This document shows positions 15,518-36,260 of a stretch of 64,000 bases of DNA, in pieces (position 1 is the stretch's first letter; each line of letters begins with the position of its first letter). The DNA lies in the NCBI RefSeq assembly GCF_028009165.1, contig NC_079244.1, positions 4,712,001 through 4,776,000 of the forward strand. Direction: 5' to 3'. The position numbers and the translations under genes were made by a program. This DNA comes from Akanthomyces muscarius (taxonomy: Eukaryota; Ascomycota; Sordariomycetes; Hypocreales; Cordycipitaceae). The notes below the pieces were generated by a model. That model was not told the DNA's origin. It was given only the letters and a program-made list of their open reading frames with translations, and ran no database searches.

Positions 15518-18500
15518 TCACTCGCGCTGCCTCTCCTCCCGCAGCCTCGCCTCCCGCTGCGCTCGCCTCGCCTTCCGGACCCGTTCTCCCACCAGCAGGC
15601 CAAAGACACGCTTCACCAGATCCGCGTCCTGCCAGCCGCCGACCTGCGTCTGGAACTCCTCGACGCAGTCCAGGTGCCAGCATTCGATCCGCATGGCCAC
15701 GTCCCGGGCCCTGACGAACTTGCCGATGAGCCTGTTCAGGCGGCGCTCCGAGCGCTCCGCCTCCAGGCGCTCGCGGCGGATCTGGACCATCCTCTCGAGA
15801 GCAATCCAGTGCTGGCGCGACCATTGCGTCTGCGAGAGGGCGGCGCCGGCAGCTGCTGCTGCTGCTGCCACCGGCTGCGAAGCTCTAGCCTCGAGCGGCG
15901 ACGCGTCCTGCATGGAGACGTCGGCGATTTCCGACGACGACGAGGGGCGCTGGTTCTCCTGGCCCTGGCTGCTGCCACGGCCCTGCTGCGATGCCGTTCC
16001 TTGCTGGAACAGCGGGGGTTCGCGGCGGTTGTCGTCCCTGTCAAAGGCCAACGACATGCTCTGCGACAGCCGCAGCGTCTCCGCAAACTCCTCCACATCA
16101 GCCTCCCGCTCCCGGCGCTTCTGGCGCGCCAGCTCCTGCTCGGGCGGCGACAGCACGCTGCTCGTAAACTCGACGACGCGGCCAGGCGTGCGCGGCTTGG
16201 TCGCAGGGCGCAGGCTCGACTTCTCCGGCGACGCGTCCTTGGGCGGCAGCGTGCGCAGGAGCGGCGGCCGAAACGAGTCTTCGCTGCTCGTGGGCGACCA
16301 CGCCGAGTCGCGCTGCCACCGGCGGATGTCGTTCCGCGTCAGCTCTCGTCTAGGCGGCGCCTTTGCAAAGGGCGCCGACGACGACAAGGGCTGTGGAGGC
16401 GCGTTGCTGCCAGCCGGCCGAGGCTTCAGCGCAGAGTTTCGGTTCCCGCCGTGCTTCTTGATGCGCTGATCCATGTTCTCGGCGGCTCTGCGAAGGTCTG
16501 CGGCCCGTAAGCTTTGCTGGGCCGACTCGCGGCCGGCAGCAAGGAACGGGTTCGGGGGGCGATAGGGCTCCCGCAGCCATTCTTCCTGCCCCGGAGGAGC
16601 CGGGCGAGCGAAGACTTCTTCCGAAAAAGTCAGAGCGCGAGCCGGGGCTGGAGCCGGAGCAGGAGTCGGGACAGGGGCAGGAGCAGTAATCGGGACAGGA
16701 GCAGTAATCGGGACAGGAGCAGTAATCGGGACAGGAGCAGTAATCGGGACCGGAGCAGGGGCAGGACTAGCCTCAACCGTTTTGCTCCATCCCGGAAAGA
16801 ACATCCCGAACGCTGTCGAGCGATTAGTAGCCGCTGAGCTCTGCTGGGCCTGCTCCCGGCCTAGCGTCTCAGCAGCAGCAGCAGCAAACAGGTTTGGCCG
16901 GCGAGGAGTCGCGGCGCGATCCTCATCCGACCTCTGCGAACCCCGGGTGCTCGTTGTCGTCGTTGCTGCCGGCGCAGGAGTGGACGCAGTTTCACTAAAT
17001 CTGCTCCCTCCTGGCAAGAAGTCGGCCATCAACACGGGCCTTGGGGCCGCAGGGTTCAGTCGCGCCTGTTCGCGGGACAGGTCCTCGGCGGCGGCAAACA
17101 TGTTTTGGCGGCGAGGAGCTGACACCTGCTCCATCGGTGGCGCCTGGGGAAACAGGCTGCCTGCCGTCATCGCCGGCGCAGGAGCCGGAGCGGCAGCCTC
17201 GGCAGGCTTGCTCTTCTTCGGAAAGAACTTGCCCGCCAGCTTGCCCGCCATGGAGATTGGCGAGGAAAAGAACTCGGACAGGTCAAACCGGCTCGCCTTG
17301 ACCGCAGAATCCGTGAGCGTCTGCTGCTCTCCCGCTGCCCGTTGTCGGGCGAGAAGTGAAAACTCCTCTGCCTCGGACTCTAGGCGCGAGTGGTCCTGCT
17401 GGCGCGACGACGAGCCAGTCTCCTCAACCGCAAGCGGCGAAGGCGGCGAAGGCGGCGAGGGCCGCACAGGCTGCGCACGCTGCGTGGGCTGCGTGGGCTG
17501 CGTGGGCTGCGTAGGCCCGGGGAACCTCCTGGGGACGCTGGTGGAAAGCGGTTGGAAGTTTTCCCGCATCCACTTGGCCGGCCTGGGTGCCTGTCCTGGG
17601 GCGTCCTGCGACGCCTTCCTCTTCCTCCTCGAGGTACCAAACGGCTTGTTCCTCTGCCGTTTCGGAGATTCTCTCTCCGCCTCGAAATCCCAAATGTCGG
17701 TCGAGTCGTCTCTTGCTGGCGGGAGCACCGGCAGCTCAGGCTCAGACATCTCTGGCGACGGCTCGCGCTGACGCGGCAGCACCGGCAGCTCCGGTTCCGA
17801 AAACACGGGCGACGCAGGTTCACGCCGAGGCGCCTGCAGCTCAAGCTTCTTAAGCTCGGGCTGCTCGGGTATCGACGGAAGCCTTGTCCGCGCAGGCCCA
17901 GAGTAGATGTCTTCTTCCGACTCTACTTCCGGCTCCTGTCGTGTCGGCTTGGGCGCAGAGTAGATATCTTCTTCCGATTCTGCTTCTGAATCCGAGTCGG
18001 ACGACCATGGGTTCGGTGCGCGGAAAGTGCGCCCGGGCTCCGGCTCCTCTTCTGCGTCAGGAACAGGTGAAGGCGTCACCGTGGACTGTCCGAGAAGGCC
18101 GCCGCTGCGGCCAGTCCCGGGCTCGGAAGCAGCAACAACATCTTGCAGAGTGTTGTCGCCGCGCAGTCTGGGGCTGATCGGGCCCTCGTCAGCGACCCAG
18201 CTCATGTCGCTCTCCGGCGAATGACGCAGAGAGCTGTTCGCCGAGACGCGTCCAGGTGTCGGCATTTGCGCCGCCCGTGGAGCCTCATCCTCAAAAGATG
18301 GGCTCGCTGTCGCGGGAGGCACAGCCTCAACACTCTGAGTTCTCTGCCCGGAGAGAGACGATCGCTGCGGCGACACAGATGCCTGTGCCTGGCTCACCGT
18401 CGCGGCCGGGGGCTCGGTGCCTCTCGTGCTCTTGCTGAAGAGCGACGACCTTGGCGGCGACACGGAAGGTTGGCGCGGGCTGCGCTGCGGCTGCTTCGAG

Positions 18501-21500
18501 ACCGCGTTCCCCCTTGTCGATTCGCGGAGAGGAGAACGGGTCTGACTCGGCGAGAGCGACGACTGGCTCTGCCTTCCAAGAGTCCCGATGCGCGATGTCG
18601 GGCTTTTGCTGACCCGGTGACCGCTCGGGCTTCTGCTAGGCAGGCGGCCGCTGCTGCCCTCTCGCTCCTTGGAGCCGGATTGGGGCTCTTTGCTGCCGGA
18701 ACTTCTAAACGGACTGCGCAGATGGCGGTCTCCGGCTTCCGGAGACGGCGGATCCGAGGTGACGCTCTGAAGGACGCGGCCGGCGCGGACAATCGAGGAC
18801 AGCGCAGGGCGAACCTGCTGCTGCGTGGACTCGTGCGCCACAGACTGCGGCTGCACGAGCGAAGAGATCGGGTTGCGCGGGGTCTCTTCGAATGAAGACC
18901 CGCTGCGCTGAGCAGCCGCCTCGGGCTGCTGCATCGCCGAGGACGGATGGGACCTCGGCGTGGACGATGGCTGGCGGCTGGGGCCTGCCTGGCCGAGGGG
19001 CTGCGAGAGCAACTGCACCTGAGGCTCTTGCTGGGTCGGGACGGGCGCTGCTGGAGCCGGGGAGTTTGGCGGAGAGGAGTCTGGGGTTGGCAGGCGACGG
19101 GGTCCAGACTGCACCACGGGAGCATCGGAGGGAAGAGGCTGCTCTTCGGCCGTCTCTTCTGTCGCCTCTTCTGCTTCCTGCGCGTCGTCTCCTCCTTCTG
19201 CCATCAATGCGTCATCTTCAAGCTCTGATGACTCGCGTGCTCCAGCAGCCTGATCGGCCGGCTCGAGGCTATCGGGCCGGGCCTGCTGCTCTGCCTGCTG
19301 CGAAACTTCTGCTACTTGATGCTCCTCTGTTATGGCAACATCTTCAGCAAGGCGCGCAGCCTCCGCAGCCATCGCGTATCGTCCATGGCTGGCTTCCAGC
19401 TCACCCATAATCTCATCCATTTGCTCATCATCGAGCTCCTCAACCTCCCTTGCCGATCTAGGCTGTCTCGGCGCTGCTGCCGCCAGAATATCCTCGGGAA
19501 TGTCCGAGAAGGAGTCTTCGTCCATCATAGAATCCTGTCTAGATTCCTGGACTTGGGCGCTCCCTGCCGAAGATTCTCCTGTTCGCTGAGGAGAACCCGC
19601 TGCTCGTACACTGCCGGGCGGAGAGCCTCCAGTCTGGTATCGCTTGAAGACGCGATAGCGGAGCGGAGACGAGTTCGTCGCCTTTCGGGGCGATTGCGGT
19701 TGTCTCGCGCTGCGAGGCGTGGCCGAAGACGGGCGGCTGGACGACTGCCTAAATGGTGTCATCTCAGGCTCCGGCTCCGGCTCCGACTCTCTTGCGGCCT
19801 TTTCCGCGGCTGCTGCCTCGACCTCTTTCAGGACCTCTTGCTCAACTTGTCGTTCAAATTCAGCATTGTCCTCCTCCGCCATTCTTGCGAGCTCTGCCTC
19901 GAGATCTCCGTCGCTGTCGCTGCCTTCTGCAGATTCCGATTCGGACTGTGCTGCGGGTTCCGCAGCCTTGGGTTGCGACTCGTCTAACTGAGCTTCAAGC
20001 TCGGGTTCAGGTTTCGAGTCGGCAGCCAACGGCGCCGGCGCAGCAAACTCGTTTCCAGCCGTTTCATTTTCAGATTCACGGCCATTCTCATTGGGATCCG
20101 CCGCCTGGGGCTGCGACGCCTCTGGCTGCGCTTCAAGCTCAGCTTCAGATTCTGGGTCGGCAGCTAGCGGCTTCGGCGTGGCAAGCTCCTCTTCGGCTGG
20201 GTCGTTTTCAGATTCCCGGCCGGTCAGAGTATCCGCGTCGTCATCTTCGTCGTCTTCGCCCTCGTCTTCTCGATCGGCAACTTCGCCTTGGCGAAGAGGC
20301 TCGAGAGTGCTGTTGATGATGAGATTGGTGTCATCGCCAATCTCGCTGTAGTGGGACGGAGGGGGCGCAACGCCGCGCGTGCTTGCTTGCAGGGAGGGGA
20401 TCGAGTCCGCGAGAATCATGCTGAAATCTTCACCACGAGCAATGGTGTCGTTTCTTCTCGTTGTCATGGACTCGACAGGCAGTTCGTCATCAGCAGACGA
20501 GAGGTCGCTGGCAGCTGGGGCAAGGGAGCCGTACTCTCCTTCCGAGAAGGAGACGGACGGCCGTCGCTCTTCTTCCCGCTCTTGCGTTTGCGATGCGGGT
20601 TTCGTGGCTGGCCTCGCAGAAGCCTTTGGAGTCGCGTCTTGCGACATTGTCGTCATCCAGATATCCGATTCTGGCTCTGCGTCGGCCGCCAGTGTCGACA
20701 TTCCACGGTTTCCAGGTAATATTCCCGTGACTGTCGTATCTCGTTGTAGGTCATCTTCGCTCGTAGGCACTTGATTGACCATTGCCGTATCGTCGGCAGC
20801 ATCCGCGCGCCCGGCTGACCGGTCTGAAGCGACAGACTGTCGCCGGCTGCGCACGATGCGCCTTACCGGGTTGGCTACCGGTGCGGGTTCTGTGCCCAGC
20901 TCGCTGGACGGCTCCGCGGCTCGACTTCTAGGCGAGCGCAGGCGTCGTTTCGGCGTGGGCGACCGCTGGGTAAGATCGTCGGACATGGAGTCGGAATCCA
21001 TGCTGTCTTCGACGGTCTGTGGGCGGCCAGATACTCTTCGGCCAGGCGGGGTAGGATCTCGGCGTCGCTTCCCCGTGGTCGGTTTAGGAATGGGCGTCCC
21101 ATTCGATGTGCGGATTCGGGTTTTCCGCGGCCGCGGCGTAGCATTCGTAGAGCCGAGTACATCACTAGACTCGTCCTCGACCGAATACTTTAGCGGCACC
21201 GTCGTTGTCGTAGTCGTTGGTTCGCGGGGTCGCGGCGTTGACGACGCGCCTGCGTCCGGGCTTTGTGTCGCGACGGCGAGCGTGTCGTCGTCCTCGTCCG
21301 TCTCTTCTACGCTGAACACGAGGCCACCCCGCGCGGCCCTTCTGTTGCCGGCGTCGAGCTCAAACGCCTGCTTTCTAGGCGAGGTGCCGAGCGACAGGAA
21401 CTTGTGGGCGCGCTGGCTGCGGGTGACGCGACGGGTGTTGGAGGAGGGGATGTGGTCAGCGGTGATTGTGTCGTTGAGGGGGTCCGGCGACGACATGATG

Positions 21501-21601
21501 TCGAGGCTCGGAGTGTCGGGGTTGGCGACGCTGTGCCAGCGCAGCTGCACCGACGAGTCGACCTGGGCGGCGCCGGCGTTGGTGTTTCGGCGTCTAGACA
21601 T
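15518..21601 (-). CDS. Giant disordered AT-hook-type DNA-binding protein
   Basis: One intron-free frame of 2,027 residues from the chosen ATG at 21601 (MSRRRNTNAG). The frame stays open a further 125 codons upstream to 21976, but that part lacks family features and overlaps the probable leader. The N-terminus has an FELDAGN motif and basic clusters (GRRVSGRPQ, GKRRRDPTPPGRR) like those of the fungal 'AT DNA binding protein' family. The centre is low-complexity acidic, Ser/Pro and Gln-rich. The last ~110 residues form a conserved ordered domain (QWSRQHWIALERMVQIRRER, ECWHLDCVEEFQTQVGGW, VKRVFGLLVGERVRKARR). Internal duplications occur around GRESEN and EEDIYS. A nuclear chromatin role is inferred. 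High confidence as a gene, moderate for function. Confidence 0.85.
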   Translation of the reverse strand: MSRRRNTNAGAAQVDSSVQLRWHSVANPDTPSLDIMSSPDPLNDTITADHIPSSNTRRVTRSQRAHKFLSLGTSPRKQAFELDAGNRRAARGGLVFSVEETDEDDDTLAVATQSPDAGASSTPRPREPTTTTTTVPLKYSVEDESSDVLGSTNATPRPRKTRIRTSNGTPIPKPTTGKRRRDPTPPGRRVSGRPQTVEDSMDSDSMSDDLTQRSPTPKRRLRSPRSRAAEPSSELGTEPAPVANPVRRIVRSRRQSVASDRSAGRADAADDTAMVNQVPTSEDDLQRDTTVTGILPGNRGMSTLAADAEPESDIWMTTMSQDATPKASARPATKPASQTQEREEERRPSVSFSEGEYGSLAPAASDLSSADDELPVESMTTRRNDTIARGEDFSMILADSIPSLQASTRGVAPPPSHYSEIGDDTNLIINSTLEPLRQGEVADREDEGEDDEDDDADTLTGRESENDPAEEELATPKPLAADPESEAELEAQPEASQPQAADPNENGRESENETAGNEFAAPAPLAADSKPEPELEAQLDESQPKAAEPAAQSESESAEGSDSDGDLEAELARMAEEDNAEFERQVEQEVLKEVEAAAAEKAARESEPEPEPEMTPFRQSSSRPSSATPRSARQPQSPRKATNSSPLRYRVFKRYQTGGSPPGSVRAAGSPQRTGESSAGSAQVQESRQDSMMDEDSFSDIPEDILAAAAPRQPRSAREVEELDDEQMDEIMGELEASHGRYAMAAEAARLAEDVAITEEHQVAEVSQQAEQQARPDSLEPADQAAGARESSELEDDALMAEGGDDAQEAEEATEETAEEQPLPSDAPVVQSGPRRLPTPDSSPPNSPAPAAPVPTQQEPQVQLLSQPLGQAGPSRQPSSTPRSHPSSAMQQPEAAAQRSGSSFEETPRNPISSLVQPQSVAHESTQQQVRPALSSIVRAGRVLQSVTSDPPSPEAGDRHLRSPFRSSGSKEPQSGSKEREGSSGRLPSRSPSGHRVSKSPTSRIGTLGRQSQSSLSPSQTRSPLRESTRGNAVSKQPQRSPRQPSVSPPRSSLFSKSTRGTEPPAATVSQAQASVSPQRSSLSGQRTQSVEAVPPATASPSFEDEAPRAAQMPTPGRVSANSSLRHSPESDMSWVADEGPISPRLRGDNTLQDVVAASEPGTGRSGGLLGQSTVTPSPVPDAEEEPEPGRTFRAPNPWSSDSDSEAESEEDIYSAPKPTRQEPEVESEEDIYSGPARTRLPSIPEQPELKKLELQAPRREPASPVFSEPELPVLPRQREPSPEMSEPELPVLPPARDDSTDIWDFEAERESPKRQRNKPFGTSRRKRKASQDAPGQAPRPAKWMRENFQPLSTSVPRRFPGPTQPTQPTQPTQRAQPVRPSPPSPPSPLAVEETGSSSRQQDHSRLESEAEEFSLLARQRAAGEQQTLTDSAVKASRFDLSEFFSSPISMAGKLAGKFFPKKSKPAEAAAPAPAPAMTAGSLFPQAPPMEQVSAPRRQNMFAAAEDLSREQARLNPAAPRPVLMADFLPGGSRFSETASTPAPAATTTTSTRGSQRSDEDRAATPRRPNLFAAAAAETLGREQAQQSSAATNRSTAFGMFFPGWSKTVEASPAPAPVPITAPVPITAPVPITAPVPITAPAPVPTPAPAPAPARALTFSEEVFARPAPPGQEEWLREPYRPPNPFLAAGRESAQQSLRAADLRRAAENMDQRIKKHGGNRNSALKPRPAGSNAPPQPLSSSAPFAKAPPRRELTRNDIRRWQRDSAWSPTSSEDSFRPPLLRTLPPKDASPEKSSLRPATKPRTPGRVVEFTSSVLSPPEQELARQKRREREADVEEFAETLRLSQSMSLAFDRDDNRREPPLFQQGTASQQGRGSSQGQENQRPSSSSEIADVSMQDASPLEARASQPVAAAAAAAGAALSQTQWSRQHWIALERMVQIRRERLEAERSERRLNRLIGKFVRARDVAMRIECWHLDCVEEFQTQVGGWQDADLVKRVFGLLVGERVRKARRAQREARLREERQRE
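16683..16754 (-). repeat. 18-bp tandem repeat in coding sequence
   Basis: Four head-to-tail copies of an 18-bp unit (plus-strand GCAGTAATCGGGACAGGA, last copy with one change) encode a repeated six-residue Pro-Val/Ile-Thr-Ala-Pro unit inside the giant AT-hook protein. Copy number is likely to vary between strains. Confidence 0.9.
19940..20225 (-). repeat. Tandem duplication of an acidic ~46-residue unit
   Basis: Two adjacent diverged copies begin GRESENDPAEEELATP and GRESENETAGNEFAAP and run through PLAAD, ELEAQ and SQP blocks. They lie in the acidic part of the AT-hook protein and do not break its frame. Confidence 0.7.
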
Positions 21602-22462
21602 TTCCACAGATGTCGCGGGGCAAAAGAGGGCAGAAAAAAAAGATGGTCTTTGTCCCTTGATTCCGGACCGTTGATCTGGAGAGCCATGGAATGTTGCGGG
21701 CGGCGAGCGGGGGGATTTAATAGAGAAATGTGCTCTGGCTAAGCGCTGAAGGGTTTCGTGAGCGCGCCTTGCGATACCTTGTACAGCCAAGTACAGCCAC
21801 GTACAGGCCAACTGCTGTGAGATGTGAAATTCAATATTGTTTACTTTGTACCCGATCTGTACTAGCTCAATACGAGGTAGGACCGTTTCGTGAGCCGGTG
21901 GGGCGGTGAAGCGGATCAAGGTCCTGCCGCTCCGACGAGCCACAGGGCTACTGGTACACACTGTCGCTGTTCGCACCTATTTTAGCAGTCACATGCGACC
22001 TGCGACCTGCGAAAGATACCTCTCGGATGCTGGGGATAGCTAGCAAACAGCAAGTACCGCCGGGTGCCCATCATCACCCACCATGCCACCCCAGCACTCT
22101 CCCACATCTACCCAGCATGCACTCTAGCGCATGACGCTGCTGCTGCTGTTGCTGCTATTTCCCTGTGCTTGCAGCCGACAGTGCGGGAGGTCCCACGCTT
22201 CGGCATCCACCCCCACGGGACCTCGGTTGAGAGCTCGCATCGTGCTAGACCACGGTCACATTTGTAGATCCATCAATCGTTTGCGCCGACTTGTTTTCTA
22301 ATTTAATACCATCATCGCCATCATCTTCTCCCTTGTTTCTCCCCTGCCCTCTACTCGTTCCTTTTCCTCTGTGCCCCATCTCGATGATACAAGCTCTCAC
22401 CTGCGCTTAAATAATCCCTGCCGTACCACGCCACCACCAAGCACCACCGTCTTGAAGCAGCC
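21602..22462. other. Divergent promoter region, AT-hook gene / peroxisomal carrier
   Basis: Non-coding on the plus strand. A short CTG/GCT-type run (ctgctgctgctgttgctgct) lies at about 22137-22157. The CT-rich leader at 22290-22460 precedes the carrier start. Confidence 0.5.
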
Positions 22463-29038: not shown

Positions 29039-29885
29039 GGTGGCTATATGAGTGTCGATGCCGGCGCGTAGACAGTGTTGTACCAGTGCTGTGGTGTAGT
29101 GCTGTGTCTAAGTGAGAGGCAATGTGTTAAATTGCGTAGTCGTAAAGAAAATGGTTGAGAATGTTGGTCTTTGTGATGGCAGAGATGCTTTTGCAAGATG
29201 TATCCAAAGCATGCCGATGCAACAGGACATGATGCTATATATATGACTGTCCTGGAGACGTTGACACCAGGCGCATTCCATCGAGCGTCATCGTTCTAGA
29301 ATTCGTTCAAGACACCTGGGGAAAGCAGCGCCCAGCCAGAACGGGTGCTGGCGGCCATACGGGGGATACGGTCGTAGCCCGGCGGCACGCGATTGGCGCA
29401 TGGCTCTGTTTAAGTGGGTAATCTCGCGAAATACGATGAATGCGTGGTGGATCCCCGGCGCCACAAGCTGACCCTACCGCTGGGAACAGCGCTGTAACCA
29501 GCCCCCCAGGCAGGCACTGTAGGGCTCGACGGTGGAACACCACCCGCTTGACTACTGCTGCATCTGTTTTAGCGGTCGCCCTGCTGTGTGCCCGGCGTGG
29601 CTGTGCTGAGCCTTGTGATGACAGCTTCGTCGCCTCAGACTGACTTGTCGGACAAGGGCGGCGCGGTGCTGATCGAGGCAGGACATGGGCTAAAAGTATC
29701 GCGCCGGATTCTGCGTATTTTCTACAGCCGCATACCCCGCCTCATGATGCTCTCACCAGGACGTAAGCACTGGGGTCAAGAGTCGAAGCTATCGGGTAGG
29801 CAGTCGAGGATCGAACTTGATTAAATTAAATTCCATTAAACTCATCAACGTAAGATGCTGGCGTGACGACTTTACATTTCTCTTC
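29039..29885. other. Intergenic between the PPxY protein and the Zn2Cys6 gene
   Basis: Promoter of the PPxY gene (left) and 3' side of the regulator (right). No gene recognised. Confidence 0.45.
29235..29243 (-). promoter_or_regulatory. TATA-like element of the PPxY gene
   Basis: TATATATAG on the minus strand, about 197 nt upstream of the ATG at 29038. Confidence 0.35.
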
Positions 29886-31437
29886 TCAACTCGCCCTCCG
29901 CCCGAAAAAGGTCAGGTCCCGATCGAGCTGCTCCTCCACCCACATCGGCCACTGGTTGTACATTTGATGCTGGTAGTCGACGCGCGCATTCAGATACTTG
30001 AGCCAGCGCAGGAACCCCGGGTCCATCCTGCTCTCCTGCCTCGACGGGTACTTTTGCCGCACGCTCATCTCCTGCTCGTTGATAAACGCCATGATCTGCG
30101 ACAGCGCGATCCAGTGCGTGTGCAGCAGCACCATGGTCTGGTTCCGCATGTTGATGAGCTCCTGGAACGTGCCGTGCGGGAGCAGCATCCACCATCCGTA
30201 CTGTTTCGAGTTGGTTTTGTATGCTGGCAATCGTTAGCAAGGAAGATGGCATTAAAAAAGTCGTCAAGCCAAAAAAAAAAAAAAAAAAAAAGGCCCTACC
30301 CTCAAAGGAATTCTCGTAGAGCTTCTCCGCAATGCCCAGCAGCTGCTCGCGGTACTCGCCCTCGAGCTGCGTCCCGCACAGCGGCTTGAGCCCGTCCAGC
30401 GCCCCGACCGCCGCGTCCACCCACGCCCTCTCGATGAGCGGCAGGTCCTCCATCTGCGTGGCCAGGTGCTCGTTGGGGTCGTTGTCGAACAGCGTCGTGA
30501 AGACGGGCGCAATGTTGCGGAAGCTCATCTGCATGCCCACAATCACGATGCCCCGGATAAACGTCATGTACTCGGCCATGCCGTCCTCGAGGCTGACCGA
30601 CTGGAACGTGAGCGCAAAGCACGTCGCCACCAGCGCGTTGGCCTCTTCGTAGCTGGTATCGGTCCGGGCCGACTCGGCCAGCCGCTTCTTGATGGCCTTG
30701 ATGGCCTTGATGCGGTGGTTCATGGCTGCCGCGACGAGCGTGCCGTCCTGGTGCACGAGCTCCGACGCCGCGAAGCCGAGGATGGCGTGCATCAGGAACT
30801 CGTGGTTGTGCGCGATGCAGGGGATCTCGTGCGTCCAGACCTCCTCCTGCTTCAGGGGATGGTGCGGGTAGCACTGCGTCAGGAAATGCTGGAAGAAGCG
30901 CATGTCTTGTAAGCTAAACAGGGGGATTTGATGATGCGGCTATACACACCTTGTTAGAGTCGCCATAATCTCCATATGCTACTGCGGTATAGTCTCACCT
31001 GATGAATGATTTGCGGCGCTGCAGGATACTCGCACTTTAGGCCCGTCTTGACGCAGTGCCCGCATGCCGGATGCGTTTCCTGACACTATCGAGTCTAGTT
31101 AGCATCCATAATCTCATCATGACCAGCACGGCCTGTTTACCTTGATGCGTCGTCTCTTGCAGTTGTAGCAGCCGCGACGGCTCTTGGTGTGGCCTCTTCG
31201 CTCCAGGCGCTGCTTGGCGTTTGCCGCACGACGAGCAACCTCACTGCTGGGAGGGCTTCTGCTCTCCGAGCTGGGCGGCGTCACTTGGCCGGGCGACTGG
31301 GCCAGCGCCGCTTGGTTCTGCGGCGGCGTCAGGTCCTGGAACTGCATCGCGCCGTCGCCGCCCAGGAAGGCGCTGTAGTCGAACTGGCTCGGGTCCGGGT
31401 ACGGCAGCATGCCGGACGAGTAGCTGTTCATGTCCAT
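29886..31437 (-). CDS. Zn2Cys6 transcription factor, Upc2-like
   Basis: Four exons, 31437..31141, 31085..30999, 30939..30300 and 30223..29886, give 453 residues. The zinc cluster is split by intron 1: GCYNCKRRRIK in exon 1 and CQETHPACGHCVKTGLKCEY in exon 2. Using the TAG acceptor at 31086 is what supplies the third cysteine. The short basic lead (HTKSRRG) before the first Cys and a C-terminal fungal regulatory domain (FFQHFLTQCYPHHPL, IPCIAHNHEFLMHAILGFAA) match the sterol-uptake-control Upc2/Ecm22-type group. Such factors activate sterol biosynthesis and uptake or, in other members, local gene clusters. Intron 3 (30299..30224) contains a 21-A run. The adjacent MFS gene is a candidate target by position only. 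Confidence 0.87.
30271..30291 (+). repeat. Poly(A) run of 21 inside an intron
   Basis: A homopolymer of 21 A on the plus strand (poly-T in the transcript) within intron 3 of the Zn2Cys6 gene. It could act as a polypyrimidine tract and is prone to sequencing-length error. Confidence 0.9.
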
Positions 31438-31857: not shown

Positions 31858-33417
31858 TTACTCGTCTCGAGACACTCTCCTGCTCCCAGGAATGTAGTTG
31901 ACACAAATCCTCAAGGCGATGGCCAAAGGAATAAGAATAACCCATACAAGGTAGCCCCATAATACTTGGCTTCTGACGCCAACTGCAAAAATTACCGTGG
32001 AAACGCCAGGAACAAACGATCTGAAGACGCTGGCGCTCGTCATGGAAATTCCATTCATGGTAGCCATTATGTGGCGACTCGGGGATGCATCATTAATAGC
32101 CAGCTGCGCGCTGGTGAAGCCCATAGACACACCAGGTCCCGTAACTGCGAGAAAACTACCCAATGTCCATGCCCAAGCCATGGCAGACTTGCCGCCGATT
32201 CGGAGGAGTGCATTGAGGAGTATGATGCCAGCAAAAAAGAACTGATAGGCTGTTGCACACATCTTCAGCAAGTTCTTGGTGCCGTAGCGACGCTGCAAAA
32301 TGGGGAAAGCAATGATGAGCCAAAAGGCTTGACTGGCTCCTTGAACGGCCATGAAGGCAGATATTTGCGACGAAGAGAAGCCAGTACCGCCAATATTAAC
32401 GGGAGTGAATAGGAATACTGGCATAAGAGCCGTGACCGCAAACGCAAGAAGCATGAAGTGGGTATAGACCCAGATAGTAATCGCGACCTTGGGAGCCATG
32501 AGAAGCTCTCGCATAGAGAGAGCCCGATGGGCGGCGGCCTGGCCATCACCATTGGAGGAGACGGCTTCCTCATCCGAGTCGAGAGTCTCTTCAAGGAAGA
32601 GAAAGGAAATGACAACACCTGCGGTACCGACAGTAGTTAATACAAAGCCGACGAGGGCATAAGGGTAATTCTCAAAGATTGCAATTCCCTTGAAGATTCT
32701 CGGATACTGGGCGACAGGATCCGCCAGCAGGCCACCGATAAGCGGACCGAGAGTGGTGCCGATGTTATTGGCAAAGCCGAACCAGCTGTATGCCCTGGCC
32801 TCATTCTCGGGTGTGCAGTGCTCGAAGAGCATAGTGCGCATCACCAATCGAGATCCGGAGAAAACACCGGCCAAGCAACGGAACAAGATCATCTGGGGAA
32901 TCGTAGTGGCCATGGTGTATGCCATTGTGAAGACGACCATGCCTGCCAAGGTGATGATCATGACGGGCTTGCGGCCAATCGAGTCGGCGAGACGACCCCA
33001 GACGATCAGGACGAATATCTGAACCACGGAGAAGAGGGACTCGATGAGGCCGCTGTAGAAGCCCACGTCCGAATCTGCCAAGTGGCCATTGCGCTTCACC
33101 ATCTGCGCAATGAAGGGGAAGATGGCGAAGAATGCAATGGGCTCCATGGTTCGCGCAAAGCATAGCAGGAAGATCTGAAGCTTGGGAAGTGGCTTGCTCT
33201 CCTGAGAAGCCTTGCCTGCTGGAAGCACCCCATCTTCCAGCTGAGACGATGAAGTGCTGGCATCGAGCTCAGGCTCATCGCTTCTCTCAGAGAGCAGCGG
33301 AGTCGTCTCTGTGCATTTTGGAGGCAATGCTTTGCCGCCATTGTCGTCGTTGAGGGTGTTCTCCGAGGTTGAAGATCCCGCAGACCGGAGAGGGGGCGGC
33401 GGCGGTGGTGGCGCCAT
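31858..33417 (-). CDS. Major facilitator superfamily transporter (ZIFL1/YCR023C-like)
   Basis: Single exon of 519 residues from the ATG at 33417 ([12 protein letters not shown]). About 80 residues of proline/serine/acidic cytosolic tail come first and include an ETTPLLSE acidic-dileucine-type motif. Twelve hydrophobic segments follow. Segment 1 (LQIFLLCFARTMEPIAFFAI) and the loop 2-3 motif A (WGRLADSIGRKPVMIITLAG) place it in the DHA1-type group near fungal YCR023C and plant ZIFL1. SRLVMRTMLFEHCTPENEAR is also typical. The substrate is unknown. The dileucine motif suggests vacuolar or endosomal targeting. It is transcribed away from the divergent adenylosuccinate synthetase gene across a 1.2-kb shared upstream region and points the same way as the Zn2Cys6 gene. 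Confidence 0.87.
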   Translation of the reverse strand: MAPPPPPPPLRSAGSSTSENTLNDDNGGKALPPKCTETTPLLSERSDEPELDASTSSSQLEDGVLPAGKASQESKPLPKLQIFLLCFARTMEPIAFFAIFPFIAQMVKRNGHLADSDVGFYSGLIESLFSVVQIFVLIVWGRLADSIGRKPVMIITLAGMVVFTMAYTMATTIPQMILFRCLAGVFSGSRLVMRTMLFEHCTPENEARAYSWFGFANNIGTTLGPLIGGLLADPVAQYPRIFKGIAIFENYPYALVGFVLTTVGTAGVVISFLFLEETLDSDEEAVSSNGDGQAAAHRALSMRELLMAPKVAITIWVYTHFMLLAFAVTALMPVFLFTPVNIGGTGFSSSQISAFMAVQGASQAFWLIIAFPILQRRYGTKNLLKMCATAYQFFFAGIILLNALLRIGGKSAMAWAWTLGSFLAVTGPGVSMGFTSAQLAINDASPSRHIMATMNGISMTSASVFRSFVPGVSTVIFAVGVRSQVLWGYLVWVILIPLAIALRICVNYIPGSRRVSRDE

Positions 33418-34590: not shown

Positions 34591-36260
34591 ATGACTACTA
34601 CAATTATTATCGGGACGCAATGGGGTGATGAGGGCAAGGGCAAGCTCACAGACATATTTTGCTCCAAGGCAGATGTAGTAGCTCGCGCGGCTGTAAGTTT
34701 ACCCAAATATTTGAGCCAGTCCGCTTTCTCGAAGATGCCACTGCAAAAAAATGTTTGTACGTCTTGTGTTGCTTGGATTCGACTAAGAGAGTTTTGAAGG
34801 GCGGCCATAACGCCGGGCACGTTGTGCAGGCCAATGGCATCTATCACAACTTTCGTCTCCTCCCCTCTGGCCTCATGGTGCCCAAGTGCCTGGCTCTCAT
34901 CGGCACCGGCGTCGTGTTCCATATCCCCACCTTCCTCGAAGAACTTGCCGACATTCAGGAAGAAGGAATCAAGGATGCCAGTGACCGTGTCTTTGTGTCG
35001 GACAGATGCCATGTCAACTTTGATCTCCATGCGGCGGTCGACACCGCCCAAGAAGAAGAGCTGCTCGGCAAGGCCGTCGGTTCCATGCGGCGTGGAATCG
35101 GGCCTTGCTATAGCACCAAGGCTATTCGAAGCGGTATACGAGTTGCGGAAATCTTCGACGAGGAGGCATTTGAGGACAAGCTGCGACGACTGGCAGCTGG
35201 GTACCAGAAACGCTTTGGGGGCCTCCTAAAGTACGACGTTGAGGACGAGATTGAGCGCTTCAAGAAATATCGAGTGGCGATCCAAAAATACGTGGTCGAT
35301 GGCGTGCTATTCATGGCCAAGGCCAAGGAGAGAGGCGCCAATATTGTTGTCGAGGGAAGTCAAGCTATCCTGCTCGATGTTGACTACGGCACGTACCCAT
35401 ATGTTACAAGCTCCAGCACAGGCTTAGGTGGTACCATTTCCGGTCTTGGGCTCGGCATCAGAGACATCAAGGAGGTTATTGGAGTCGTCAAAGCGTAAGG
35501 AAGATGCATGGATTCTCGAAGCTATCTGTCATGGTCTGGAGAAGCTAACTGTTTGGATGCAGCTATACGACTCGACTTGGTCTGGGAGGTTTCCCAACGG
35601 AGGATGGCGGCGAGGTTGGAAAACACCTGCAAGAGTTGGGTGGCGAGTATGCTGCGGTTATTCGCCGCAAGCTGAGAGTAAGAATTCCCGTGTTCCTTTA
35701 TTCAGGATAAAGGAAATATGCCAGCCATATCGCTTCTGGTCTTGTGTTCATTTTACCTATGATTGATGGCTGACTTTGACGCAGTGTGGGTGGCTTGATC
35801 TCGTGGCCTTGCGCTACTCTTGCATGGTCAATCATTATGACAGTCTCCAACTAAGCAAACTCGACGTTCTCAGCACGTTTGAGACGATCAAAGTCGGCAT
35901 CGCATATCGAGACAAGGAGACCGGAAAAGAAATTCCCTCTTTCCCAGCAGATCACGCGGTGCTCGAGCGTGTGGAAGTTGTCTACGATGAGTTGTCAGGC
36001 TGGAATACCAGCATTGCCAAAATGCGCGAATGGTCTGAGCTGCCCAAGGAAGCGCATGATTATGTTGAGTACATTGAACGGTTTGTTGGTACCAAGGCAA
36101 GTACAATTTCTTTCATGGGCGTCTTGTCGCGGCTAGTGTTGCTGGCTTGCCATGACCATCTGTTTCTCGTGTATTGCGATACTGGCTGCTAACAAATAAA
36201 TGATAGATCAAATGGATTGGAACTGGCGCAGAGCGAGAGGATATAATTACGCGGGCCTGA
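34591..36260 (+). CDS. Divergent adenylosuccinate synthetase homologue
   Basis: Five exons, 34591..34692, 34800..35494, 35563..35677, 35785..36096 and 36207..36260, give 425 residues, the normal family length. AdSS joins IMP and aspartate with GTP in AMP synthesis. Conserved parts: [11 protein letters not shown] with D13 and K16, GGHNAGH with H41, [11 protein letters not shown], the guanine-site LSKLDVL and a C-terminal [12 protein letters not shown]. Odd parts: T42 is V; the IMP-phosphate threonine (E. coli T129) is M130, in GSMRRGIGP; the aspartate loop, normally G-V/A-T-T-G-R-x-R-R, is AAVIRRKLR at 296-304; and GAGPFPTE reads GLGGFPTE. The last intron uses a GC donor (AAG|GCAAGT). Fungi usually have one canonical AdSS, so this is probably a second, altered copy. 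It could be an enzyme with a new substrate, a resistant copy or an inactive one. Confidence 0.86.

Follow-up and report, generated by a model that had tools for sequence, protein, structure and literature searches.

What does a fungus do with a second adenylosuccinate synthetase (AdSS) that has kept its catalytic residues and lost most of those that hold aspartate? This question is raised by a stretch of 64,000 bases from Akanthomyces muscarius, referred to here as the window, which covers positions 4,712,001-4,776,000 of a contig of 4,856,708 bases and ends about 80 kb before the contig end. A preliminary description of the gene, made from the letters alone, saw in it either a paralogue with another substrate or a drug-resistant target copy. 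We compared the gene with its relatives, with the other AdSS copies of the genome and with its neighbours.

The gene model is that of an intact gene. Its five exons (Table 1) join into a coding sequence of 1278 bases, stop included, with no internal stop codon, and all four introns have usable splice sites, in agreement with the preliminary description, which had called length, introns and frame intact. Intron 4 requires a GC-AG donor. Of the two donors tried, the GC donor yields the C-terminus of 12 residues seen in relatives, and the GT donor 4 bases downstream departs from the homologous C-terminus. The PF00709 profile gives four exon-wise matches spanning positions 1-407 of 416, three of the four being individually above the curated cut-off. 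The best database match is P0001 from Akanthomyces lecanii RCEF 1005, with 98% identity. In addition to the residues listed in Table 1, exon 2 encodes S129-M130, R144, Q222 and T237 in the numbering of the window protein. A further GT is present at 35657-35658, directly after codon 297; used as a donor, it would skip VIRRKLR, and the database model of Cordyceps javanica, P0003, appears to use the GT after codon 297 in this way.

Table 1. Positions of the AdSS gene, its parts and its neighbours in the window, and of the other AdSS copies in the genome.
Feature	Position	Strand	Remarks
Rewritten AdSS paralogue, whole coding sequence	34591..36260	+	Five exons, 425 aa
Exon 1	34591..34692	+	GDEGKGK (D13, K16)
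Exon 2	34800..35494	+	GGHNAGHV (N38, H41, V42), R53
Exon 3	35563..35677	+	L271 (V273 position), GLGGFPTE, substrate loop
Exon 4	35785..36096	+	Guanine-site KLD; GC-AG donor
Exon 5 and stop	36207..36260	+	Encodes 17 residues
Met130 codon	35085..35087	+	Position of the IMP-phosphate threonine (E. coli T129)
AAVIRRKLR loop, residues 296-304	35651..35677	+	Aspartate-binding loop in PurA; stops at exon 3 donor
MFS transporter	31858..33417	-	519 aa, one open frame; PF07690, E=9.8e-31; divergent from AdSS
Possible regulator (Fungal_trans_2 fragment)	29875..30939	-	PF11951, E=4.1e-06
L001	1489-2760 (profile match G000:C5:3362604-3363851)		Contig 5; intact, intronless, canonical T129 and TSTGR
L002	1501-2451 (G000:C4:3574836-3575786)		Contig 4; 5'-truncated relic, at least one in-frame TGA
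L005	910-1049 and 1277-1825 (G000:C2)		Degraded remnants of a second L001 copy

Residues were compared in 234 aligned AdSS rows, of which eight belong to the rewritten clade and 226 do not, and are given from here on in E. coli numbering. All eight clade rows keep the catalytic D13, H41 and K16, the GTP-site K331 and D333, and the further nucleotide contacts N38, R131, R143, Q224 and T239; the GDEGKGK motif, H41 and KLD had already been described as intact. Against this background seven letters are specific to the clade: S128, M129, L273, A298, V300, I301 and L305. Each of them is identical in all clade rows that have a letter there (8 or 7 of the 8) and is found in none of the 226 others. The methionine noted earlier in place of the IMP-phosphate threonine is present in 8 of the 234 rows, all of them in the clade, and T occupies this position in 220. 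I301 and L305 are each found in 7 rows, again all within the clade, the eighth clade row being P0003, a database gene model that does not contain the loop. At the positions expected of a functional AdSS, T300/T301 together with R303/R305, the clade has V, I, R/Q/K and L, with the window gene keeping R303 alone. A299 is likewise common to the clade rows wherever they have letters in the loop. The motif exceeds chance by far.

The window protein itself reads V42, S128, M129, L273, A298, A299, V300, I301, R302, K304 and L305, so that G298, T300, T301, G302 and R305 are lost. The replacement of a TTGR-type loop by AAVIRRKLR, as first described, is therefore real, but it is less complete than it seemed, as the equivalent of R303 is still an arginine. 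In the clade, position 302 varies between R, G, K and C, and position 303 between R, Q and K; R303 is retained in 5 of the 7 rows with letters, C. militaris having Q and Aphanocladium K instead. The reading of GAGPFPTE as GLGGFPTE was confirmed in the window protein. V42 was also read correctly, but this letter is shared by 13 of the 234 rows, which include the eight clade rows and the canonical-site copy L001 of the same genome, the usual letters being S (105 rows) or L (76 rows); V42 is thus weak evidence for a rewrite. Two changes that were absent from the preliminary description are V273 to L and H53 to R, and all 222 other rows with a letter at position 53 have H. When columns at least 95% uniform in the 225 other fungal rows were considered, 22 of 175 were altered in the clade, H53R being one of these changes (E. 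coli was left out, and each column had at least 150 letters).

In E. coli PurA, T129 serves the IMP phosphate and T300/T301 serve aspartate, and the 42-53 loop has a role as well. We take the changes at T128/T129, H53 and positions 49-50 to lie on the nucleotide side. For the Helicobacter pylori enzyme it was reported that Thr121 contacts the IMP phosphate through its side chain and backbone, that Val264 and Arg294 contact the ribose, and that a sulphate in the active site is bound by Arg294 and Arg296 (PMC11571797). By numbering offset, these four residues map to E. coli T129, V273, R303 and R305, where the clade has M, L, R/Q/K and L. R303 also touches free aspartate (PMC8342488). In the clade, one of the two arginines is thus replaced by leucine in every row with a letter and the other is sometimes replaced, and the loop has turned hydrophobic. 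The simplest reading would be that the incoming amine carries no carboxylates while IMP is still activated. The changes at T128/T129, H53 and positions 49-50 are not explained by a switch of the amine to ethanolamine alone. An AF2 model of P0001 was built from a 50-row alignment, which omitted the clade rows P0005 and P0007 because their gene models carry extra sequence. Its mean pLDDT was 74.5, with the active-site loops partly below 50, and a Foldseek search with this model ranked AdSS first with a TM score of 0.64 and an rmsd of 19 A. In view of these pLDDT and rmsd values, no pocket geometry was drawn from the model.

Seven database proteins carry the rewrite, from A. lecanii, Beauveria thailandica, C. 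javanica (two), C. fumosorosea, C. militaris and Aphanocladium album, so that it is common to six named species in four genera (Akanthomyces, Beauveria, Cordyceps and Aphanocladium). They come from the best 120 of about 8000 proteins scored, and weaker members may have been missed. Beauveria and Cordyceps belong to the Cordycipitaceae. A tree was built from 50 rows out of the 234, with E. coli, P0019 and P0023 deliberately omitted; the eight rewritten rows form one group in it with support 100/100, which answers the question whether they make a clade of their own. The stem of this clade, with 0.438 changes per column, is the longest branch; the next inner branch has 0.199 and the inner median is 0.034. 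An 80-row tree that includes the three omitted sequences gives the same clade, and there the branches of those three exceed the clade stem. Within the clade, 278 of 409 columns are invariant. This pattern, a burst of change and then conservation, agrees better with an altered function than with decay.

The rewritten eight and 12 canonical-site sequences make up a group of 20 (100/100). Within this group, the rewritten eight together with Trichoderma evansii, Xylariales and one other, 15 rows in all, split from the Diaporthales copies with support 99/92, and the rewritten clade is drawn beside Whalleya and another Xylariomycetidae sequence with weak support (94/0). The 12 canonical-site relatives retain T128, T129, V273 and a GVSTGR-type loop. 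As a gene of Hypocreales is nested here in a mostly Xylariales group, the tree, which was rooted at the midpoint, suggests that the rewritten AdSS was horizontally acquired. Daldinia, Hypoxylon and Biscogniauxia are Xylariales. The proteins among which the rewritten clade nests (P0008-P0018, P0030 and P0070, from Xylariales, Diaporthales and T. evansii) are patchy, extra-looking AdSS with a canonical site. They may include the AdSS homologue of the Hypoxylon BGCs (PMC12616698).

A search of the genome for a second AdSS revealed one other intact copy with a canonical site, L001, together with two broken relics. The possibility that the window gene is the sole AdSS of this fungus, which would have spoken against a special role, is thereby ruled out, and the window copy need not make AMP, provided that L001 works. 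One relic, L002, is 76% identical to the AdSS of Beauveria bassiana (the P0087 type). In the other (L005/L006, contig 2), the remnants match L001 and its 3' flank with 79% and 74% DNA identity, and what is left of L005 looks like the result of RIP. It seems from these sequences that the P0087-type AdSS was lost here and that its work was perhaps taken over by L001. L001 is 92-93% identical to Verticillium and Diaporthe proteins, and Venturia too falls into its group; so patchy an occurrence suggests horizontal transfer. In addition to V42, L001 has A at position 37. The Pfam-matching open reading frames around it look ordinary (ALAD, acyltransferase and amidohydrolase; 5 of 10 were scanned).

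HEA is a purine nucleoside that carries ethanolamine at C6. Our preferred reading, which we regard as probable with modest confidence, is that the window gene encodes an HEA-forming synthetase, which would convert IMP, ethanolamine and GTP into N6-(2-hydroxyethyl)-AMP, the likely precursor of HEA. IMP would still be activated as 6-phosphoryl-IMP. A small uncharged amine, most simply ethanolamine, would then attack C6 in a pocket that no longer draws a dicarboxylate, and a phosphatase would convert N6-(2-hydroxyethyl)-AMP to HEA. The choice of ethanolamine is based on the chemistry of the site, on the distribution of HEA and on a hypothesis already in print. HEA was obtained from Cordyceps in 1983 and serves as a marker of the quality of Cordyceps products (PMC8719641). 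It is reported to act on insects via adenosine receptors and is cited as insecticidal (PMC7354514), in keeping with a family of insect pathogens. Reported sources are C. militaris, C. pruinosa, I. tenuipes and B. bassiana (PMC6059059), C. cicadae (PMC5577849) and C. fumosorosea (PMC8976864), the last also yielding an acetylated form. C. militaris and C. fumosorosea have both the gene and a report of the compound; in Beauveria the two come from different species, the listed gene from B. thailandica and reported HEA from B. bassiana. No rewritten AdSS of C. cicadae was found among the 120 best matches listed, and no HEA report from Akanthomyces or Lecanicillium among the literature matches listed.

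The biosynthesis of HEA is described as unresolved (PMC8719641, PMC11129637), and in the literature searched, which covered few subscription papers, we found no tested HEA synthetase and no proven biosynthetic gene. The reaction itself has already been proposed in print: a 2021 review refers to a bioinformatic proposal in which IMP and ethanolamine are joined by a C. militaris enzyme 74% similar to AdSS (PMC8719641, citing Chen et al. 2021). This 'adenylohydroxyethyl synthetase' (ADHOS) is AdSS-like and probably belongs to the same gene family as the window gene; it differs in that the part of the review available presents it as a pathway hypothesis and offers no sequence, residues, phylogeny or test for it (PMC8719641). 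The C. militaris member of our clade, P0005, shows 73.7% positives to L001, 74.7% to P0087, 72.8% to P0122 and 72.2% to P0103, compared with 81.6% to P0008 and 58.9% to E. coli PurA. As its positives to four fungal canonical-site AdSS thus lie at 72-75%, P0005 is probably the enzyme of the printed proposal. Other routes have also been put forward, with adenosine as the HEA precursor or glutamate as a critical substrate (PMC11129637). The same study describes two ADSS expressed in C. cicadae, one of which changes 27-fold between cultures differing in HEA, with neither direction nor sequence given in the accessible part of the paper (PMC11129637). What is new here is the gene family, the residue logic, the single long-branch origin among canonical-site relatives and the transporter partner.

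This proposed partner is the MFS gene on the opposite strand (Table 1). Of 792 matches within the E-value limit, the best 120 were considered; 13 of them are at least 65% identical and the others are at most 62% identical. Those of at least 65% include A. lecanii (two), Beauveria asiatica, C. militaris, C. fumosorosea, C. javanica, Lecanicillium saksenae and Cladobotryum mycophilum (two), and none of them is named Aphanocladium. Among the matches listed, close orthologues of the transporter thus appear mainly in fungi that bear the rewritten AdSS. A. lecanii, C. javanica and C. militaris each have a second, more distant MFS paralogue. Both genes lie on contigs of equal size in A. lecanii RCEF 1005 (5,461,016 bases), C. 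fumosorosea (771,264) and C. javanica (682,717), which supports a conserved AdSS-MFS pair without proving adjacency. The AdSS and MFS trees agree in uniting C. fumosorosea with C. javanica but place C. militaris differently, with Akanthomyces in the first and with the two other Cordyceps in the second. The two Cladobotryum proteins (P0235, 82%, and P0244, 65%) are named 'efflux pump azaK', and no rewritten AdSS of Cladobotryum was found among the matches listed. The transporter may carry HEA or a precursor across a membrane. In B. bassiana, HEA was found in the mycelium and was not found in the medium (PMC6059059), which is ill suited to an exporter; for Cordyceps, a titre of HEA in the broth is cited (PMC8719641). 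Elsewhere in the window, an arylsulfotransferase-like gene (PF14269; 38171-40064) follows AdSS downstream on the same strand, and an open frame of 2152 aa (15521-21976, minus strand) has no Pfam match at E 0.001. In the 30 scanned of the 197 window open reading frames of at least 110 aa, Pfam revealed no PKS, NRPS, terpene or P450 domain.

Other explanations have to be weighed against an HEA-forming synthetase. A resistant target copy, the main rival, would still make adenylosuccinate and would evade, at the IMP or the aspartate site, an inhibitor made by the fungus itself or met in its environment. A second AdSS in the genome, here the intact L001, is the usual sign of such a copy, and an MFS gene lies next door. 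In Hypoxylon, ALS-containing BGCs carry an AdSS homologue (PMC12616698); a Hypoxylon sequence and other Xylariales are among the nearest canonical-site relatives of the window gene. These relatives, which possibly have the same role, retain the canonical site, however, and the 30 window open reading frames scanned, out of 197, showed no core biosynthetic enzyme. Moreover, the joint loss of T300, T301, R305 and T129 would likely cripple the use of both aspartate and IMP. The groups removed are those that a working AdSS should need to bind aspartate, and we therefore consider a resistant copy unlikely. The binding site of hadacidin is the aspartate site of AdSS, and self-resistance to this compound was considered as a first choice. 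It was dropped, as no matching fungal cluster was found: in the literature searched (titles and the beginnings of abstracts) there was no fungal hadacidin cluster with an AdSS copy, and nothing that we found specifically implicates hadacidin, which the preliminary description had named as an inhibitor of AdSS. Of its two alternatives, the change of substrate is now favoured by the presence of L001, the clade-wide rewrite and the retained catalytic residues, and resistance has become the less likely one.

A substrate-switched N6 synthetase could also use another amine, such as a small hydrophobic amine or ammonia, or another 6-oxopurine nucleotide. This reading draws on the same evidence for a substrate change as the HEA reading, and M129 and R53 leave room for a different nucleotide. 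On the other hand, HEA is the N6-modified adenosine repeatedly reported from Cordycipitaceae, with its acetylated form in C. fumosorosea, and we know of no other abundant candidate product; we regard a different substrate as rather improbable. The loss of several substrate contacts could mean that the paralogue is catalytically dead and serves in regulation or binding, but D13, H41, K16 and the GTP site are unchanged in all eight rows, and there would be little reason to keep them in a dead enzyme, which makes this very improbable. That the gene is a decaying duplicate without function is hardly credible. Copies do decay in this genome, as the broken L002 and L005 illustrate, but in the window gene the frame and the splice sites are intact and the rewrite is common to all six species. 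The earlier judgement that simple decay is less likely is supported by these same observations.

Comparison with known systems places the HEA-forming reading in context. With PurA/Ade12 (EC 6.3.4.4, PF00709) the window protein shares family, length, GDEGKGK, H41, KLD, R143, Q224 and T239; it is 56-58% identical to L001, P0087, P0103 and P0122 and 38% identical to E. coli PurA. It differs at T128, T129, V273, G298, T300, T301 and R305, which are S, M, L, A, V, I and L. The phage enzyme PurZ/DgsS, which acts in 2-amino-dAMP synthesis, is likewise an AdSS-family enzyme with an altered substrate, and in PurZ D13 is replaced. A PurZ-like enzyme is ruled out here by D13, which is present in all eight clade rows, and as far as D13 goes the gene was rightly described as not PurZ. 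PurZ alters the nucleotide and keeps the loop that contacts aspartate, the T273-T276 tip being conserved in S-2L and phiVC8 (PMC8342488), whereas the window gene keeps D13 and alters the aspartate loop. The self-resistance copies of fungal BGCs (the ALS protein PtsB; the Hypoxylon AdSS homologue, PMC12616698) are also duplicates of essential enzymes, and the nearest relatives of the window gene are partly from Xylariales; unlike them, the window gene has no core enzyme beside it in the 30 of 197 open reading frames scanned and has lost its own substrate-binding residues.

Taken as a whole, the comparison of sequences leads us to a wider proposal, which we hold only tentatively: an AdSS lineage of insect-killing fungi may have exchanged aspartate for ethanolamine in one burst and, together with the divergent MFS gene, may form a two-gene cassette that makes and moves HEA. 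It would be the first enzyme of the AdSS family to use an amine other than aspartate, and to our knowledge no such member has been described. For the biosynthesis of HEA, a candidate gene family, the residues that would control its substrate and a likely transporter can now be named. If the proposal is true, a near-invariant site of a housekeeping enzyme would have shifted, along one branch and with catalysis kept, from a dicarboxylic amino acid to a simple amine.
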